The position numbers and the translations under genes are program-made. The notes under the pieces are model-generated. The model saw only the letters and a list, made by a program, of their open reading frames with translations. It was not told where the DNA came from and searched no databases. From Leptonema illini DSM 21528 (GTDB taxonomy: Bacteria > Spirochaetota > Leptospiria > Leptospirales > Leptonemataceae), in NCBI RefSeq assembly GCF_000243335.1, contig NZ_JH597773.1:889989-953988 (forward strand): a DNA stretch of 64,000 nucleotides, read 5' to 3'. This document shows, in pieces, positions 20,621-56,973 of the stretch (its first letter is position 1; each line of letters begins with the position of its first letter).

Positions 20621-20984
20621 AGTACCCGGAGCATCGAATCGTCGCGCCGCTCGCAAGAGAGTGAGGAAAGTCCGGACACCGCAGGACAGAAGACCGGGTA
20701 ATTCCCGGGGTGCCGTCTGTAATGGACGGCGCACGGAAAGTGCCACAGAGAATATACCGCCTGCCTTCGGGCAGGTAAGGGTGAAAAGGCGGGGTAAGAG
20801 CCCACCGCTCCTTCAGCGATGAAGGAGGCACGGTAAACCCTCTTCGGTGCAATCCCACATAGGCAGCCGTTAAGGTCGGTCCGGCCGTGGCTGCGGGTAG
20901 GGAGCAAAGACCCGGCAGGGAACTGCACGGGCAAGATAAATGACGATTCTCGACAGAATCCGGCTTATAGATGCTCCGGGTGCT
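20621..20984 (+). ncRNA. rnpB: RNase P RNA (class A)
   Basis: The universally conserved block GAGGAAAGTCCGGAC is at 20662-20676, and the matching 3' conserved block (ACAGAATCCGGCTTATAGA) at 20953-20971. Ends are set by stem P1: ACCCGGAGCAT at 20624-20634 pairs perfectly with ATGCTCCGGGT at 20971-20981. A run of seven to eight T follows at 20983-20990 and acts as terminator. About 360 nt is the normal length for a class A RNA. The RNA is the catalytic part of RNase P, which matures tRNA 5' ends. Open frames on the opposite strand here are not genes. Confidence 0.97.
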
Positions 20985-44421: not shown

Positions 44422-45351
44422 ATGAGCACCATTGAAGAGCTGCAACAGATCTTTCGCATTCTGCCCGTGCTTGTGCAGCGGCGCTCCATGCCCATCGCCG
44501 AGTTGATGGAGCTTGGCGGATATGCGAAGAAAAAGGATCTGATCGAAGATATTGAGGCGATGACGATGCTGGGCACTCCGCCCTACAGCCCCGCCGATCT
44601 TTTCGACGTAGAGATCAGGCATGATACGGTCTTTCTGCATTCCGATCCTGAAATCGACCGGCCGCTTTCACTGACGCCGCAGGAATGGTCGCTTCTTCGC
44701 TCGCTGATAGACGCCGATCGGGCGATGACGGCAAACGGGGCGTTACCCGAAACGGAGCGCATTCGCCTGATGGAAAGCCTCGGCGCCGTGCCCGTGCATT
44801 TTATCGAGGCCGGCCCCGAAACGGAGTTCCGCTCCCGCATCGAAGAAGCATTAGGCGGAGATCGGGCCGTCAGGCTGCTTTACAGCAACTCCGACGGGCC
44901 CGAAGAAGCGGAGCGTCTTGTTGATCCCTGGTTCTTGAACGAATACAATCGATCGAAATATCTTTTCGGATTCGACAGAGGCAAAGGCGAGTCGCGCATC
45001 TTTCGCCTGGATCGCATCGTCAAGCTCACCGTCCAGAAAGAAGCCCGGCAGAATCCGGCGCCCGACGACCTTGAAGCCGTTCGCAAAGCCCGCTCTTCAG
45101 AGCCCGATCTGACGATTCGCTTCCGCTTTCCGCGCTCGGTGCTGCCTGCTTTAAAGCGAGAGTTCTCTTTCTATATCGAGGGAGAGCATAACGATACGAT
45201 CACCGCTTCAGTAAAAACGTCGTCGCTTGAGTTCTTTCGCTGGCATCTGCGCGCCTACGCACCTTTTCTCGAAGTGATCGAACCCATCGAGCTGCGCGAA
45301 TGGATCGTAAACGAGGCGCGCCGCTTTCCCATGCCCGAGCTACTGGCTTGA
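44422..45351 (+). CDS. WYL domain transcriptional regulator (second of a pair)
   Basis: 309 residues starting STIEELQQIFRILPVLVQRRSMPIAELMELGGY, a divergent winged helix. The WYL domain is around residues 145-205: VRLLYSNSDGPEEAERLVDPWFLNEYNRSKYLFGFDRGKGESRIFRLDRIVKL. The C-terminal extension (FRFPRSVLPALKREF...) is the usual WCX-type module. Together with the gene upstream it could act as a heteromeric regulator of the PafBC kind, which responds to DNA damage; the target is unknown. The gene ends where the first repeat-bounded cassette begins. Confidence 0.9.
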   Translation: MSTIEELQQIFRILPVLVQRRSMPIAELMELGGYAKKKDLIEDIEAMTMLGTPPYSPADLFDVEIRHDTVFLHSDPEIDRPLSLTPQEWSLLRSLIDADRAMTANGALPETERIRLMESLGAVPVHFIEAGPETEFRSRIEEALGGDRAVRLLYSNSDGPEEAERLVDPWFLNEYNRSKYLFGFDRGKGESRIFRLDRIVKLTVQKEARQNPAPDDLEAVRKARSSEPDLTIRFRFPRSVLPALKREFSFYIEGEHNDTITASVKTSSLEFFRWHLRAYAPFLEVIEPIELREWIVNEARRFPMPELLA

Positions 45352-45360
45352 GAAGAAGAG

Positions 45361-45480
45361 ATGACCACGGAGGCACGGAGGATGAGAGAGCAGAGGTTTT
45401 TTGTCCACGAAATACACGAAAGGCGCGAAAAAAACCATAGGGTGGTTTGCGATTACTGGAATTTCGCGGTTCACCTGTTG
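45361..45480. repeat. Dispersed repeat, forward copy 1
   Basis: Begins ATGACCACGGAGGCACGGAG, then TCCACGAAATACACGAAAGGCGCGAAA and ACCATAGGGT...GATTACTGGAATTTCGCG. Copies 2 (45985) and 3 (46776) share the same order of blocks. It opens a cassette that closes with an inverted copy at 45911. Confidence 0.85.
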
Positions 45481-45583
45481 CCGCTTCCGGTCCATCGGGA
45501 AGAAGGACTTTACGGATTATCGTAGCCCTTTCCATGTTGCATCTCATTTTGAAAAAACTTTTCTGGCAGGCAAGGATATCGCG

Positions 45584-45883
45584 TTGAAGTATGTAGCTCT
45601 ACTGGCCAATGTGCTTATAATTGTATGGTGGCTTGCAATGCTTGTAGCAATGGGCCTTATTGGTAAAAGAAACTCTGTTCTGGACGTTGTCCTCAGTCCG
45701 ATTGCCTTCATAGGATTGCCCGTCGCATTTATATCTTTTGCTGTCGCAGGCCTTTACTACGGGGTCCACATCCTTCGCAATAAAAAGCTAACCATGATCT
45801 CCAGGCTTTTCTGGCTCATGTCTCCAGTGCTCTGTTTTTTCCCGTATATTTATTACTGGATTAAGTATGTTAGAGACGAGTAG
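45584..45883 (+). CDS. Small integral membrane protein (orphan, cassette 1)
   Basis: About 99 residues from a TTG at 45584 with AAGGA seven bases upstream; the frame is open back to 45401, but that part is translated repeat DNA. Three or four hydrophobic segments follow one another (VALLANVLIIVWWLAMLVAMGLI, VVLSPIAFIGLPVAFISFAVAGLYY, LFWLMSPVLCFFPYIYYWI). No family recognised. It stands between a forward and an inverted copy of the dispersed repeat. Base composition is lower in GC than the neighbours, as is common for acquired genes. Confidence 0.6.
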   Translation: MKYVALLANVLIIVWWLAMLVAMGLIGKRNSVLDVVLSPIAFIGLPVAFISFAVAGLYYGVHILRNKKLTMISRLFWLMSPVLCFFPYIYYWIKYVRDE

Positions 45884-45910
45884 TACTTCGCTATGAGCCC
45901 TCCCCCTCCG

Positions 45911-45940
45911 CTCCGTGCCCTCAGTGACCTCCGTGGTTCA
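45911..45940. repeat. Dispersed repeat, inverted copy 1
   Basis: CTCCGTGCCCTCAGTGACCTCCGTGGTTCA in part; reverse complement of the forward repeat head, with an extra TCACTGAGGG unit. It closes cassette 1. An identical 30-bp copy is at 46701-46730. Confidence 0.85.
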
Positions 45941-45984
45941 GAATCTTCGGGTTCTTTCCGTGGCATATACCCGGAGAAGAAGAA

Positions 45985-46055
45985 ATGACCACGGAGGCAC
46001 GGAGAGAGAGCGCAGAGTTTTTTTGTCCAGGAAATACACGAAAGGCGCGAAAAAA
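45985..46055. repeat. Dispersed repeat, forward copy 2
   Basis: ATGACCACGGAGGCACGGAG followed by GTCCAGGAAATACACG and AAAGGCGCGAAAAAACC. It opens cassette 2, 44 bp after the closing copy of cassette 1. Confidence 0.85.
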
Positions 46056-46080
46056 CCCTGCTCCACCAAAGGGACGACTT

Positions 46081-46692
46081 ATGGATGCGATTAAATTTTC
46101 ATCAATTACCTCTTGTGAGAAAAAGGGAGGGCTTATTTATTATGGTCTATATCAATCAGAATTCGATCCAATCGTAAGGGAGTCCATACCTATAGACCCA
46201 ATGGATGTTGACGACTATTTCGAAGAAATACTGGCATCGATTTTGATAAAATTAACGAACAGGCATTCAAGCATCGAATTATCAGGTTCATGGCAAGAAA
46301 TATGGGGGAGAGGAGCCGGTTTGACCGATCGAATGTCCTGTCGTAACCGCTCGCGATTCAGATCAAGGCATTACAGCCGCTACAGTTCGTTCAGTAAGAA
46401 AACGGAAATCAGCGCCCTGTTGTTTCGAGCAATGCTGAGGCGTGTGCCTGTTCAAGATATACAAGGCGACCTCGATTATACCGTTACGATACGAAATGAA
46501 GTGCAGTTTGATTCAGCGAAGCACCATAGCACAGAGGCCATGAATCAGTTGTTCGTTTTTCATAACTACTACGGGGCTGAAGAATTCGTTGCACGAACCC
46601 AGGATCTGCCGGCGTTACAATCGGCCATAAAGGAATCGTTCTTAGAGAGAGATGTCTTTATTGCTCCCATCGAATTCGATTTTGAGGAATGA
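46081..46692 (+). CDS. Orphan hypothetical protein (cassette 2)
   Basis: 203 residues from the ATG at 46081; the frame opens earlier inside the repeat. It starts MDAIKFSSITSCEKKGGLIYYGLYQ, with a polar Arg/Ser-rich middle (MSCRNRSRFRSRHYSRYSS) and an acidic C-terminus (PIEFDFEE). No transmembrane segment and no motif I can name. It lies between forward copy 2 and inverted copy 2 of the repeat, without other genes. Lower GC than the flanks suggests transfer. Possibly an immunity or regulatory protein, but this is only a guess. Confidence 0.6.
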   Translation: MDAIKFSSITSCEKKGGLIYYGLYQSEFDPIVRESIPIDPMDVDDYFEEILASILIKLTNRHSSIELSGSWQEIWGRGAGLTDRMSCRNRSRFRSRHYSRYSSFSKKTEISALLFRAMLRRVPVQDIQGDLDYTVTIRNEVQFDSAKHHSTEAMNQLFVFHNYYGAEEFVARTQDLPALQSAIKESFLERDVFIAPIEFDFEE

Positions 46693-46700
46693 TCACTCCT

Positions 46701-46730
46701 CTCCGTGCCCTCAGTGACCTCCGTGGTTCA
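46701..46730. repeat. Dispersed repeat, inverted copy 2
   Basis: Identical over 30 bp to 45911-45940. It begins 8 bp after the stop codon of the cassette 2 gene. Confidence 0.85.
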
Positions 46731-46775
46731 AACTCTTCTGGCTCTTTCAGTGAGAGATAGCGTGGGAAGAAAGAA

Positions 46776-46908
46776 TAACCACGGAGGCACGGAGGAAGAA
46801 AGAAAAGAGGAAGAGTTGTCTAACCGCGAAATACGCGAAAAGCGCGAAAGAAAACCATAGGGTGCGTTTTGAGATTGCTGGAATTTAGCGAGTCACCCGT
46901 TACTCTCA
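46776..46908. repeat. Dispersed repeat, forward copy 3
   Basis: TAACCACGGAGGCACGGAGG, then CCGCGAAATACGCGAAAAGCGCGAAA, then AACCATAGGGT...GATTGCTGGAATTTAGCG, in the same order as copy 1. It opens the cassette with the DUF3800 gene. Together with inverted copy 2 it fills most of the 360-bp stretch 46693-47053, which has no gene. Confidence 0.8.
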
Positions 46909-46999
46909 CGAATCTCCGTTGAGTTTCGTGAATATAGGTTCGCGTCTTTCACTCGCTGACGGATTTGCTCAGCGTGTGGAAAAATTAGCGGAAAAGAAG

Positions 47000-47033
47000 T
47001 TGATCAGTCGGAACGGCCTGTTTTGATCAGTCG
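47000..47033 (+). promoter_or_regulatory. Direct repeat TTGATCAGTCG x2 before the DUF3800 gene
   Basis: Two exact 11-bp copies at 47000-47010 and 47023-47033, 23 bp apart. The second can serve as -35 (TTGATC) for a -10-like GATATT at 47046-47051, very close to the ATG at 47054. No ribosome-binding site is evident. Confidence 0.45.
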
Positions 47034-47053
47034 AGGTTGCAATACGATATTCT

Positions 47054-47896
47054 ATGGCCTATTTTCTCTTTCTCGACGAGTCAGGACAGGATCATCATGA
47101 CTCACCGTACGAGGTTCTCGGCGGTATAGCGATCGAAGATGTTAACCTCTGGAACTTTATTCAGGATGCTCAGCGGCTTGAATATGATTGTTTCGGGATG
47201 CGCTATTCATCGGGCTCCAGAGAGTTAAAAGGTAAGAAGATCCTGAAACGGAAGAGTTACAGACAGGCGACTGGACATGAAGCGTTCCTGCCCGAACAAC
47301 GCCAGCAGCTTGCACACCAGGCATTGTCTGATGGCGCCGGAGCCAATCCTCTCTCTCTGGCTGCGCTGGGCCAGGCGAAGATAGATTTTGTCGGACAGCT
47401 TCTGGATCTGTGTTTCAAATACCGCTGCAAAGTATTTGCAAGTATCGTTGATCCCGGGCGACCGCTTTCTGTAGATGAAAACCTTCTGCGCAAAGACTAC
47501 GTTTATCTTCTGGAACGTTTTTTCTACTTCATCGAGGATCATCGATTTCCTCATCAAGGCATCGTCGTCTTTGACGAACTGGAGAAATCTCGCAGTCACA
47601 TCCTGATCGGACAGATGGACCGATATCTCAAGAAAACAGAAAAAGGTAGGGAGCGTTCCTCTGTGATTATTCCTGAACCGTTTTTTGTCCACAGTGATTT
47701 AACGACAGGCATACAGGTTGCCGACATCGCCTGCTATATCATATCCTGGGGAATGCGATTTGGAACGATGAATGCTCCGGCACGCGAAGAACTTGCAGGC
47801 TTCGTCGAAAAGATCCGGAGACTTCGTTACAGAACGACGAGAGACTTTGGCGAGGAGCAGCCGACAGAGATATGGAGTGTTAAGTTCCTTGGGTAA
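47054..47896 (+). CDS. DUF3800 domain protein (cassette 3)
   Basis: 280 residues. MAYFLFLDESGQD at the N-terminus, GIVVFDELEKS near residue 175 and TGIQVADIACYIISWG near 220 are the three conserved blocks of DUF3800, an RNase H-like fold whose acidic residues (D in FLDESG, D in VFDE, D in VADI) suggest metal-dependent nuclease activity. Members are common in mobile and defence regions. It stands alone after forward repeat copy 3, with a weaker inverted copy at 47991. Exact substrate unknown. Confidence 0.88.
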   Translation: MAYFLFLDESGQDHHDSPYEVLGGIAIEDVNLWNFIQDAQRLEYDCFGMRYSSGSRELKGKKILKRKSYRQATGHEAFLPEQRQQLAHQALSDGAGANPLSLAALGQAKIDFVGQLLDLCFKYRCKVFASIVDPGRPLSVDENLLRKDYVYLLERFFYFIEDHRFPHQGIVVFDELEKSRSHILIGQMDRYLKKTEKGRERSSVIIPEPFFVHSDLTTGIQVADIACYIISWGMRFGTMNAPAREELAGFVEKIRRLRYRTTRDFGEEQPTEIWSVKFLG

Positions 47897-47990
47897 AAAC
47901 AGAAAAGGCAATGCGTCTCCGCAAAGCCTCCAGTCAAAAGATGCCTTCTCTCTGAGCTAAAGTCAAGCGAAAAATCTCTCTTCTCAGTTC

Positions 47991-48012
47991 TCTCAGCGCC
48001 CTCAGCGGTTCA
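47991..48012. repeat. Dispersed repeat, weak inverted copy 3
   Basis: TCTCAGCGCCCTCAGCGGTTCA resembles the inverted repeat core but lacks the CTCCGTGG part. It lies about 95 bp after the DUF3800 stop and would close cassette 3. A related short copy is at 43256-43275, upstream of the WYL pair. Confidence 0.55.
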
Positions 48013-48079: not shown

Positions 48080-49144
48080 ATGATCCGTGAAGAGCTGAGT
48101 CCGCGTAAGGCTGCCTTGAAGAACTTTGGCCTCTCTCCGCAGAAGCTGCATTTGCTCGATGAAGATCGGCTTGAACCTCTGGAACGCTTCTCGATGTATT
48201 TGCAGGTCGAGAAGGACGGATCGGCGCATACGCTGCGCTCCTATCTGAATGACCTGCTCGATTTCCTGCTCTTTCTTCAAGAGGAGGATCATGACGCTCT
48301 GAGCGTCGATACGATCCTGCTTCGCTCCTACTTCACGAAGATCAGCGGAGTGGACTTCTCGCGCAATAAAGCGACAGGCGCCGGAACGGGTCAGAGTCTG
48401 ATGCGCACGCTCTCGCCGCGCAGTCAGGCGCGCAAGCTCTCGGCGCTGAAAACCTACTATCGCCTTCTCGTGCGCCAGGGCCTTCTTGAAGAGAATCCGG
48501 TGACGATGCGAGCTCCGAAGTTTTACCGATCGCTGCCGTCGTTTATTCCGGCGCAGGAGATGGACTCGCTGCTGCAAACGACCGAAGGCGAGACTGAGAG
48601 CAGCCGCCCCGCCGAGCTTCAGCTTCGCGACAGGGCGATGATTGAGATGCTCTATTCAACGGGCATGCGCGTCTCTGAGCTGCTTTCACTTTCGCCGAGC
48701 AGGGTGCTCGATCATAACGGCGAGATCGTTTCTGAGATGCGTATTACAGGTAAGGGCCGAAAGGACCGTGTCGTCTTTATCGGAGATCCGGCACGCCGGG
48801 CCGTCGCCGAATATCTGGTAGTGCGCCCTCGCCTGCGCCCGAAAAGCGAGTCCCTCTTTGTCAATGCGCGGGGAGGCGCCCTCACCGACCGCGGGCTGCG
48901 CGAGATTCTCAATCACTACGAACGCAACGCCGGACTGCGCAAGCGGCTGTATCCGCATCGCTTCAGGCATACCTTTGCCACCGATCTTTTGAACGACGGC
49001 GCCGACATCCGACAGGTACAGGAGATGCTCGGCCACAGCTCCCTTTCGACGACGCAGATCTACACGTCGGTCTCACGGGAGCGGCTGAAAGAGGTCTACC
49101 GAAACAGCCATCCCCGGGCAAAAAGCCCGCGGGAAACGGCATAA
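48080..49144 (+). CDS. Tyrosine recombinase (XerC/XerD-like)
   Basis: 354 residues, longer than typical Xer (about 300) by an N-terminal stretch of about 30 residues and an insertion near residue 100 (FSRNKATGAGTGQ). Catalytic residues are all visible: Arg in YSTGMRVSELLSL, Lys in ITGKGRKDRVV, His-Arg in PHRFRHTFATDLL, His in LGHSSLSTTQIYT and the Tyr in that last block. It likely resolves chromosome dimers, or could be an element-encoded integrase; the location next to housekeeping genes favours Xer. A 52-aa gene and a terminator follow. Confidence 0.92.
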   Translation: MIREELSPRKAALKNFGLSPQKLHLLDEDRLEPLERFSMYLQVEKDGSAHTLRSYLNDLLDFLLFLQEEDHDALSVDTILLRSYFTKISGVDFSRNKATGAGTGQSLMRTLSPRSQARKLSALKTYYRLLVRQGLLEENPVTMRAPKFYRSLPSFIPAQEMDSLLQTTEGETESSRPAELQLRDRAMIEMLYSTGMRVSELLSLSPSRVLDHNGEIVSEMRITGKGRKDRVVFIGDPARRAVAEYLVVRPRLRPKSESLFVNARGGALTDRGLREILNHYERNAGLRKRLYPHRFRHTFATDLLNDGADIRQVQEMLGHSSLSTTQIYTSVSRERLKEVYRNSHPRAKSPRETA

Positions 49145-54793: not shown

Positions 54794-54867
54794 CTCCGCG
54801 CCCTCAGAGCCCTCCGCGGTTCAATTCCTCTGCCCCTTTCGCGCTTTTCGTGCCTTTCGTGGACTCC
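54794..54867 (-). repeat. Direct repeat A flanking the ATPase/nuclease-like cassette
   Basis: 74 bp running from CTCCGCGCCCTCAGAGCCC to CTTTCGTGGACTCC. It differs from repeat B (56856-56929) at only two or three positions. It is a member of the CCACGAAA.../CCGCGGAGG... dispersed repeat family seen at 45-48 kb, here with both blocks in one copy. Confidence 0.9.
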
Positions 54868-54889
54868 GATTTTCCCGCTTTAATCCGCC

Positions 54890-55065: not shown

Positions 55066-55533
55066 TCAATTCTGATCGTAATCCAGGTTCAATACCGACT
55101 CGATCCTTATTCCCGACATAGCCAGTGTCCTCGCATGTGAACTTCCTTTAATATGCACGCCGTTTTCGACAATCCAGACAAAGGGACTGGCGGCCTTTCT
55201 TTGATCTATGCCCGGCGCTTTCTTTCTTAACCACGACTTCAACCATTCCAGTTTCTTTATAACCTTCTTGACATCCGATGTGAAACCGGAATGGACTTCG
55301 GCAAAATAAACCCGACTCTTATACGCCACGGCATAATCCCACCGGCTGGCAACCGGATAAACTTCTTTCAGGCACTCATCGAGATATAGACTTCCCTCAA
55401 TACTTCTTGTTTCTTTCGCTCGAATCCGCGGACGATGCTTCTTATCAAGGGCAGAAAGCCCCGCCCTGTAACAATCCTTGATCTCTGCTATGTTTCGAAC
55501 CGCCGCTTCAAACGTTTCCTTATTTTTAACCAT
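55066..55533 (-). CDS. ATPase partner with nuclease-like E...D...ExH pattern
   Basis: 155 residues from the ATG at 55533, with GGAGAG before it; this start overlaps the ATPase stop by 8 nt (ATGGTTAA), strong evidence for translational coupling. E46 sits in a predicted helix (RSIEGSLYLDECL), D66 in RWDYAVAY, and E79-V-H81 in VYFAEVHSG on the next strand. This is the PD-(D/E)XK order with His in place of Lys. A helix KKLEWLKSWL and FVWIVENGVHI follow. I know no named family; nuclease activity is inference. It would act with the upstream ATPase. Confidence 0.8.
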   Translation of the reverse strand: MVKNKETFEAAVRNIAEIKDCYRAGLSALDKKHRPRIRAKETRSIEGSLYLDECLKEVYPVASRWDYAVAYKSRVYFAEVHSGFTSDVKKVIKKLEWLKSWLRKKAPGIDQRKAASPFVWIVENGVHIKGSSHARTLAMSGIRIESVLNLDYDQN

Positions 55534-56671
55534 TCGCTTTTCTCTCCGCCACAAGTTCTACGGCACGGGAGGCGAAGGAAGAGACATTTCCCCATTCTCG
55601 AATATCAGGGTCATCATAATCAGCAAGAGAAGAGATGTCCTTTACTTCAATGCCAGAGCTGCCTTCTTTGAAGAAGTAAGAGTTAACTGTTCCATTGTTG
55701 AAGAAACTCGCGTATGGCTTCAGATGCGCTGAAGGAACCTGAAAGAGGGCCGCATAGGAATCCACCGCCCTCTTTTCATTTTTCATCTGTTGAAAGAACC
55801 AGGCAAAATCAAGGAGGATGGGCGAATGAGTCGAAACGATGACCTTGTAGCCCCTGTCGATTAAATCGACAATCTGCAACATCACGGATTGAATCGCACT
55901 GGGATGAAGCCCCATCTCAGGCTCTTCGATTACTACATACTCAAGTCTATCTCTTTTCGCTTTCGTCGGCGGGCACAGCCAGTAGAAGCCGAGCAGCAAC
56001 GGCATAAATTCCTTTTGACCGGCGCTCCAGGTCATAAAGGGAATATCCATATTCTTCATTCTTAGCCGGAATCTTTTTTGCCCCGATCTTGCATCAAGCT
56101 TGATAGTCGCATTATGGAAGATACTCTTTGAGAAAGATTGGCGGAGCGGGTCTTTCAGACGACGGCTCACAGGAAAAATCATGTCTTCTTCGGCCGAAAA
56201 CCCCTGAATCAGTTGCCGGAGGCTGTCACTGAAGTATCGCAGAACAAACGGAACCGTTGTATCGAACTCGCTGAAAAATTTCGGGCGACCATCCTCTACA
56301 CTGAGAATTCTCTGTGCCGGAATATAGAATAGCTTTTCGACTGCGTTTTTATACTGATCGTTCTTTACCGGCGCCATTTTCGAAAGGACGAACTTTGTAG
56401 AGTCGATCTGAACATCGGTCTTTTCATTCCAGAGGGCATTCATGCCTTCGCCGAAGTAGTAGTCCAGATTATAGGTTGGGTCTTTATTCCAGACAAACGT
56501 ATACTGCTCCAGGACCTTACGAATATAATCTCTATCGATGGCGAGCTTGAGCAGCTGAAGCAGACTACTCTTTCCGCTGGCCTGCGGGCCCACAAGAAGA
56601 GTCAGGTCTCCGAATTCGATCTCTGCGCGCTTGATCGGCCCAAAGTTCTTTACGATAAATTTCTTCATCAT
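55526..56671 (-). CDS. ABC/AAA-type ATPase of the OLD/AAA_21 kind
   Basis: 381 residues from the ATG at 56671, seven bases after the stop of the small upstream gene and with AAGG before it. It starts KKFIVKNFGPIKRAEIEFGDLTLLVGPQASGKSSLLQ: Walker A at residues 28-35. MTWSAGQKEFMPLLLGFYW is the signature-like loop, YVVIEEPEMGLHPSAIQ the Walker B with D-loop region, and KVIVSTHSPILLDF the H-loop. This layout is common in anti-phage ATPases (OLD, Septu PtuA, AbiL, PARIS). There is no C-terminal TOPRIM domain, so the effector is probably the 155-aa protein made from the overlapping gene downstream. Confidence 0.9.
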   Translation of the reverse strand: MMKKFIVKNFGPIKRAEIEFGDLTLLVGPQASGKSSLLQLLKLAIDRDYIRKVLEQYTFVWNKDPTYNLDYYFGEGMNALWNEKTDVQIDSTKFVLSKMAPVKNDQYKNAVEKLFYIPAQRILSVEDGRPKFFSEFDTTVPFVLRYFSDSLRQLIQGFSAEEDMIFPVSRRLKDPLRQSFSKSIFHNATIKLDARSGQKRFRLRMKNMDIPFMTWSAGQKEFMPLLLGFYWLCPPTKAKRDRLEYVVIEEPEMGLHPSAIQSVMLQIVDLIDRGYKVIVSTHSPILLDFAWFFQQMKNEKRAVDSYAALFQVPSAHLKPYASFFNNGTVNSYFFKEGSSGIEVKDISSLADYDDPDIREWGNVSSFASRAVELVAERKANG

Positions 56672-56855: not shown

Positions 56856-56929
56856 CTCCGTGCCCTCAGAGCCCTCCGCGGTTCAATTCCTCTTCCCCTT
56901 TCGCGCTTTTCGTGCCTTTCGTGGACTCC
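56856..56929 (-). repeat. Direct repeat B flanking the ATPase/nuclease-like cassette
   Basis: 74 bp nearly identical to repeat A at 54794-54867 and in the same orientation. A partial second copy of its end (TTTTCGCGCCTTTCGTGGAC) follows at 56947-56966. The operon 54890-56834 fits exactly between A and B. Confidence 0.9.
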
Positions 56930-56973
56930 CTTCTTCCCTCTGCTCGCTTTTCGCGCCTTTCGTGGACCCGGCC

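Follow-up and report, generated by a model that had tools for sequence, protein, structure and literature searches.

The array between the PafC-like and XerC-like genes

The window analysed here comprises 64,000 nucleotides of Leptonema illini DSM 21528 (positions 889989-953988 of a 4.33 Mb contig; genome 4.52 Mb). At 45361-48012 of the window, three units follow one another, each consisting of an opening repeat, one gene, and an inverted closing repeat. The array occupies the gap between the stop (45351) of a PafC-like WYL regulator (44422..45351, forward strand; Pfam WYL/HTH_PafC/WCX) and the start (48080) of a XerC-like tyrosine recombinase (48080..49144, forward strand; best family XerC). 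The opening repeat has two parts, A (ACCACGGAGGCACGGAG; CCACGGAGG 9-mers) and b (TCCACGAAATACACGAAAGGCGCGAAA); on the closing side A alone recurs, inverted, and b is absent. The openers, all on the forward strand, were located at 45362..45436 (A at 45364-45380, b at about 45405-45433), 45986..46057 and 46776..46856, the second and third likewise consisting of A and b. A itself starts at 45364, 45988 and 46778 with zero mismatches, against a chance expectation in the window of 0.15 matches at up to three mismatches. The closers, inverted A on the reverse strand, were found at 45900..45941, 46698..46729 and 47980..48012; they are more degenerate than the A of the openers, and the third, built of CGCTGAGGG/CGCTGAGAG units, is the most degenerate. 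In the window closers, among them the first and third, and in the b part the best lag is 9, with values at that lag of 0.62 and 0.59 for closers and 0.60 for b. The location of openers and inverted closers bears out the first-pass annotation, which had described three gene cassettes framed by inverted copies of one repeat; its estimate of about 45 bp between a closing and the next opening repeat also holds, the measured distance being 46 bp at both junctions (linkers 45942..45987 and 46730..46775). A hairpin fold was predicted at each closer/opener junction (z -4.4 and -3.3).

All three cassette genes lie on the forward strand. The first (ORF1, 45584..45883) has a TTG start and encodes a small, hydrophobic, membrane-like product of about 99 aa, for which profile searches gave no family match. 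The second (ORF2, 46081..46692) encodes a 203-aa orphan protein, and the third (ORF3, 47054..47896) a 280-aa DUF3800 protein (PF12686, E 7.6e-20). Their GC contents are 43.6, 43.5, and 48.9%, respectively, compared with 55.6 +/- 3.1% in long ORFs. Family searches and GC figures thus agree with the earlier description of these genes as unrelated, single, and of lower GC. No match to the S23 four-helix ORF was obtained among the three cassette genes or in the genome. A single paralogue of ORF2, at 51%, is present elsewhere in the genome (G000:C1:114972-115580; L202:1498-2109). One ACCACGGAGAGACAG was seen about 100 bp downstream of this paralogue, with a run of N close by; it was dropped as a candidate second framed copy, its framing not being clear.

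In four genomes of a sister genus the PafC-like gene lies directly before the Xer gene, without the array. The gap between the two is only 29-117 bp in these relatives versus 2.7 kb in L. illini, so the array is an insertion between ancestral neighbours. Since the Xer gene keeps the same neighbour where the array is absent, it is probably a housekeeping gene, judging from gene order, and it was rejected as the recombinase of the array.

An integron-like cassette array (CALIN) run by a tyrosine recombinase such as the adjacent Xer would share with the window units the consecutive single-gene arrangement, accessory cargo including toxin-antitoxin genes, the junction hairpins, the single gene direction within the array, and a Xer gene next door. 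We regard this explanation as very improbable. The Xer protein is XerC-like and falls far below the cut-off of integrase models (101 bits against the integron integrase model TIGR02249, cut-off 265), its gene has the same neighbour without an array in the relatives, gene direction varies at other framed loci, and most repeat sites are gene-free. Inspection by eye for attC sites (RYYYAAC ... GTTRRRY with the attC fold) showed hairpins, and GTTAAAC-like ends at some copies only. An Rfam search over the window gave no match besides RNase P RNA (bacterial class A, at 20626-20983). With no integron integrase (IntI) nearby and no fixed cassette orientation, an integron identity was rejected.

Copies of the repeat across the genome

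At up to two mismatches A has 42 copies in the genome, and the reversed control has none. A sequence model of the opener gave 115 matches (partial copies) in about 48 clusters genome-wide. Most clusters enclose no gene: they lie between ordinary genes as short A-b-core-A' elements of roughly 125-300 bp, single or in tandem, with recurring linkers. About ten clusters enclose genes between copies, and these genes are accessory in kind: a Fic/Doc and MazE-type pair, an HNH nuclease, a PDC-M56 defence pair, DUF1493, DUF3800, a GxxExxY nuclease, and a ribbon-helix-helix protein. Framed genes average 47.4% GC and the genes just outside 56.0% (p 2.6e-8), in a comparison that is not blind, the gene lists having been hand-picked from the cluster list. 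Gene direction relative to the repeat is uniform in the window and opposite at genome positions 292515-293215, 1014731, and 1480997.

These counts divide the earlier expectations. The proposal of a dispersed repeat that recruits genes gains support from the accessory, AT-rich genes that also lie between other copies, and the proposal of an array of mobile units without an encoded recombinase agrees with the cassette-like units inserted between ancestral neighbours. A general rule that the repeat marks a cassette fails genome-wide, the majority of copies framing no gene. The first-pass annotation had named copies placed at random with respect to genes and orientation as speaking against cassettes; such independence was found in part, in that copies are not generally tied to genes and direction varies, while about ten clusters do frame genes.

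A second framed set lies in the window itself, where two b copies in the same orientation (54835..54888 and 56897..56941, both reverse strand, both R1 matches) stand on either side of PDC-M56B (55066-55533, PADLOC E 4.7e-53) and a PDC-M56A-like gene (55526-56671, PADLOC E 5.9e-159), both on the reverse strand. This candidate defence pair consists of an AAA ATPase and its partner and has a GC content of 46-47%. At another locus (L205:3016-3713), the Fic/Doc and MazE-type toxin-antitoxin pair has two direct a-b repeat copies on either side. An apparent CRISPR array with GTTTCAATCCACATCCTTCCCGAAGGAAGGATG-type repeats adjoins a b repeat elsewhere (L226, about 2019-2850; C1:3323518-3324348).

The dispersed palindromes, their alternating orientation, and the recurring linkers are those of REP, BIME, and REPIN sequences. 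The main rival to the explanation that we favour is accordingly a REP/BIME-like mosaic of dispersed palindromes with incidental cargo, in which foreign genes, GxxExxY included, landed by transfer or homologous recombination. Such a mosaic would account for copies that are mostly intergenic and gene-free, for the mosaic arrays, and for the recurrence of linkers; we consider it possible but rather unlikely. The joining of near-identical element bodies to different linkers points to exchange at the arms, in line with the favoured explanation. The arms are also occupied by other mobile elements. Nine copies of two group II introns are all inserted inside repeat arms at fixed positions: six copies of the first type (L031, L034, L038, L041, L045, L220) after CTCCGTGCCTCCG and before TGGT, and three copies of the second type (L035, L217, L049) after A-type CACxGAG..CGG. 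REP-type repeats are likewise targeted by other mobile elements, and arms that serve as targets are compatible both with the REP/BIME rival and with the favoured explanation.

If the units were instead mobile insertion cassettes of a DDE or HUH transposase, with the autonomous copy absent or missed, then the inverted ends, the single genes, and the lack of an internal recombinase would all be expected. Among the loci read, no transposase with these ends was found. The IS5-type copies near b repeats carry their own, unrelated ends of the CAACAAAG type, and the repeat was therefore rejected as IS5 ends. The 454-aa ORF beside A motifs was rejected as a transposase as well, the repeat-associated 454/447-aa ORFs being group II intron reverse transcriptases. 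We judge a transposase origin improbable. At one locus (L224:3595-6479), within similar flanks, each of two IS5-type transposase genes has a b repeat at a distance of about 210 bp.

GxxExxY genes and the period of their arms

The GxxExxY family (TIGR04256 / PF13366) belongs to the RecB/Cas4-like PD-(D/E)xK nucleases. The genome has GxxExxY matches at 1384177 and 3743498, and the gene at 3743444-3743863 lies between TTTAACCTCAGAGGTCGCGGAGGACGCAGAG and an inverted version of it, followed by a linker of the same kind as the first linker in the window. In its type of end and linker, the genome's own GxxExxY unit thus agrees with the window units; in these, inverted arms that match each other and have a 9-bp period enclose other genes. 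Since this gene has such ends, the arms around GxxExxY genes were examined in other genomes, the sample being the 30 best-matching GxxExxY loci in 247 Spirochaetota genomes, one per species. At 17 of these 30 loci a CACRRAG-type repeat faces the gene from one side or both, compared with 1/30 for the four-helix family TIGR02436, 0/30 for ParE, and 0/14 for Xer.

A motif-free test for inverted arms was also applied: the 100 bp preceding each gene were aligned locally to the reverse-complemented 100 bp that follow it, and scores above the shuffled 99th percentile were counted as positive. Positives were 22/30 for GxxExxY, 13/30 for four-helix genes, 1/30 for ParE, and 0/14 for Xer; the ORF2 arms in the window scored 16, with lag 9. 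DUF3800 loci elsewhere were positive in 3 of 29 cases, these being AT-rich and without the 9-bp period, and DUF3800 was rejected as an intrinsically framed family on that count. The matched arms are tandem arrays. A lag-9 peak is confined to GxxExxY (mean Z 3.1); four-helix genes alone peak at lags 7 and 14 (Z 5.8 and 4.4), and the control profiles are flat. Unit letters vary by locus (CCACAGAGG, ACAGGATTA, CGCAGATGAA; GATTAGT, GGTAGCA, TAATTGG), yet both arms of any one gene agree with each other despite these changes. The inverted arms of the four-helix (S23/IVS family) loci (L262-L291), which come from many genomes, have a sharp 7-bp period with letters unrelated between loci, and framing is thus not unique to a nuclease. 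A REP/BIME-like mosaic predicts neither the match of left and right arms nor a family-specific period at GxxExxY and four-helix genes, and it does not predict that ParE, Xer, and DUF3800 genes are without arms.

Arms of this kind are carried by plasmid copies of GxxExxY in Bacteroides and Bernardetia, and in Sphingomonas a GxxExxY gene is located between fabD and fabG. One locus from the same phylum set (L246) has the same flank as a plasmid locus of Treponema saccharophilum (L356). By eye, no target-site duplication was found at GxxExxY units, whose arms are too degenerate to fix the exact ends. The GxxExxY proteins retain E40, D80, E90, K92, Q104, and Y108 (numbered as in the alignment), with PD-(D/E)xK and QxxxY intact, the residues that we would expect of an active RecB/Cas4-like nuclease. 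A sequence search gave no solved structure for a GxxExxY protein. Among open-licence PMC papers, no report of GxxExxY function was found and nothing on these ends, which may have been described elsewhere.

The dispersed repeat and the gene family also correlate between genomes. Across 245 genomes, at least two dispersed 9-mer motifs were present in 32 of the 55 with GxxExxY and 23 of the 190 without (p 1.8e-11). The association persists when the comparison is limited to genomes above 3 Mb (p 2e-6) and in a within-family permutation (p <= 2e-4). After subtraction of four motifs per GxxExxY copy it is weaker (15/55 versus 23/190, p 0.01); with the same subtraction and at least four motifs the counts are 11/55 and 9/190 (p 0.0009). 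The link is genuine without being absolute: some genomes with many motifs, for example G036 and G156, lack a GxxExxY match above the cut-off, the latter having 54 motifs and sub-threshold matches only. Among the matches listed, which include some look-alikes, a palindromic junction (CCTCYGTGGT, 33-63 bases, ACCACRGAGG) occurs in many phyla, Methanosarcinales included, and such a spread of a palindromic site is also what a REP/BIME-like mosaic would give. GxxExxY is present at 4 of 120 palindromic-junction loci among these matches, a count that is supportive only, as the loci were selected for the repeat. One Chlamydiae MAG (L081, L083, L088, and other JABDCQ loci) has dozens of CCTCTGTGGTTTCTTCCCTCTGTGG sites between ordinary genes. 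An Acidobacteria MAG (L132, L140, L158, L159) has a different dispersed palindrome, GTACGGGCGACCCTCTGTGGTCGCCC, and these look-alike sites were set aside as unrelated.

A proposed explanation: units with GxxExxY-type ends and other cargo

The window units resemble several described systems in part. Mobile insertion cassettes have inverted ends and single genes with no internal recombinase, and we take them to be the nearest functional analogue of the window units. As in these cassettes and in MITEs, a gene or short body lies between terminal inverted repeats, passenger genes are carried without a recombinase of their own, and many short copies are gene-free; here, however, each end is a tandem array of degenerate units, the best candidate for a partner protein is a RecB/Cas4-like nuclease, and the loci read hold no transposase with matching ends. 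REP, BIME, and REPIN sequences share the alternating dispersed palindromes, recurring linkers, and use as targets by other mobile elements, whereas the ends described here enclose genes, with GxxExxY as the associated one.

Intervening sequences (IVSs) in 23S rRNA that carry an S23 ORF have inverted-repeat borders cut by RNase III; their occurrence is sporadic, and a mobile-element origin has been proposed, the origin being described as unresolved (PMC4990558). They also hold a single small gene between inverted repeats. The window units differ in being intergenic (the array sits between the PafC and Xer genes and not in 23S rRNA), in carrying other genes, and in having 9-bp rather than 7-bp arms. 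By the criteria applied, the array was not counted among the 23S IVSs nor, on the loci read, among the mobile insertion cassettes. A relationship to S23 IVSs is suggested by the period-7 arms that flank free-standing four-helix genes. It could be argued that the arms act at the RNA level, a stem in the transcript enclosing the gene for processing or protection as in 23S rRNA IVSs. The same kind of inverted arms at S23-family four-helix genes and the RNase III-cut repeats of 23S IVSs with an S23p ORF (PMC4990558) are in keeping with this. We think it unlikely: an RNA function leaves the insertion between PafC and Xer, the AT-rich accessory cargo, and the gene-free copies unexplained.

The explanation that we favour, with about even confidence, is that the array consists of three tandem non-autonomous single-gene elements with GxxExxY-type ends and other genes as cargo. 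The same 9-base-rhythm ends frame GxxExxY genes in many bacteria, and for this reason the window units look like passengers of a little-known class of mobile element the size of a gene; repeats of this end type also point to a candidate enzyme acting in trans. The ends would be inverted arrays of degenerate 9-bp units such as bracket GxxExxY genes, and the GxxExxY protein would act in trans on these periodic, hairpin-forming ends. The window units, having the ends but other genes, would have been moved or exchanged in trans at their ends. Unrelated genes may become cargo once caught between two ends, and an array could grow in tandem when further units insert at ends already present or are exchanged through them. 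The unit structure, the insertion, the bias in cargo, and the family-specific period are observations, whereas movement or exchange at the ends, and the part given to the nuclease, we infer. Against this explanation stand the many gene-free copies and the want of an evident target-site duplication; in the genomes compared, one per species, neither excision, nor a circular form, nor gain or loss between strains was seen.

More broadly, and tentatively, we suggest that unrelated small-protein families (GxxExxY and S23 four-helix) might each define gene-sized mobile elements, with ends that are inverted, degenerate arrays of a class-specific period (9 or 7 bp) recognised by the encoded protein, present in many phyla and able to pick up unrelated genes. 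If so, this would account for the entry of single accessory genes (toxin-antitoxin, defence, DUF3800) into the chromosome without an adjacent recombinase. The arm period would provide a simple sequence rule for locating such units in genomes, and the shared architecture with a family-specific period would make the function of GxxExxY and the origin of S23 IVSs directly testable.
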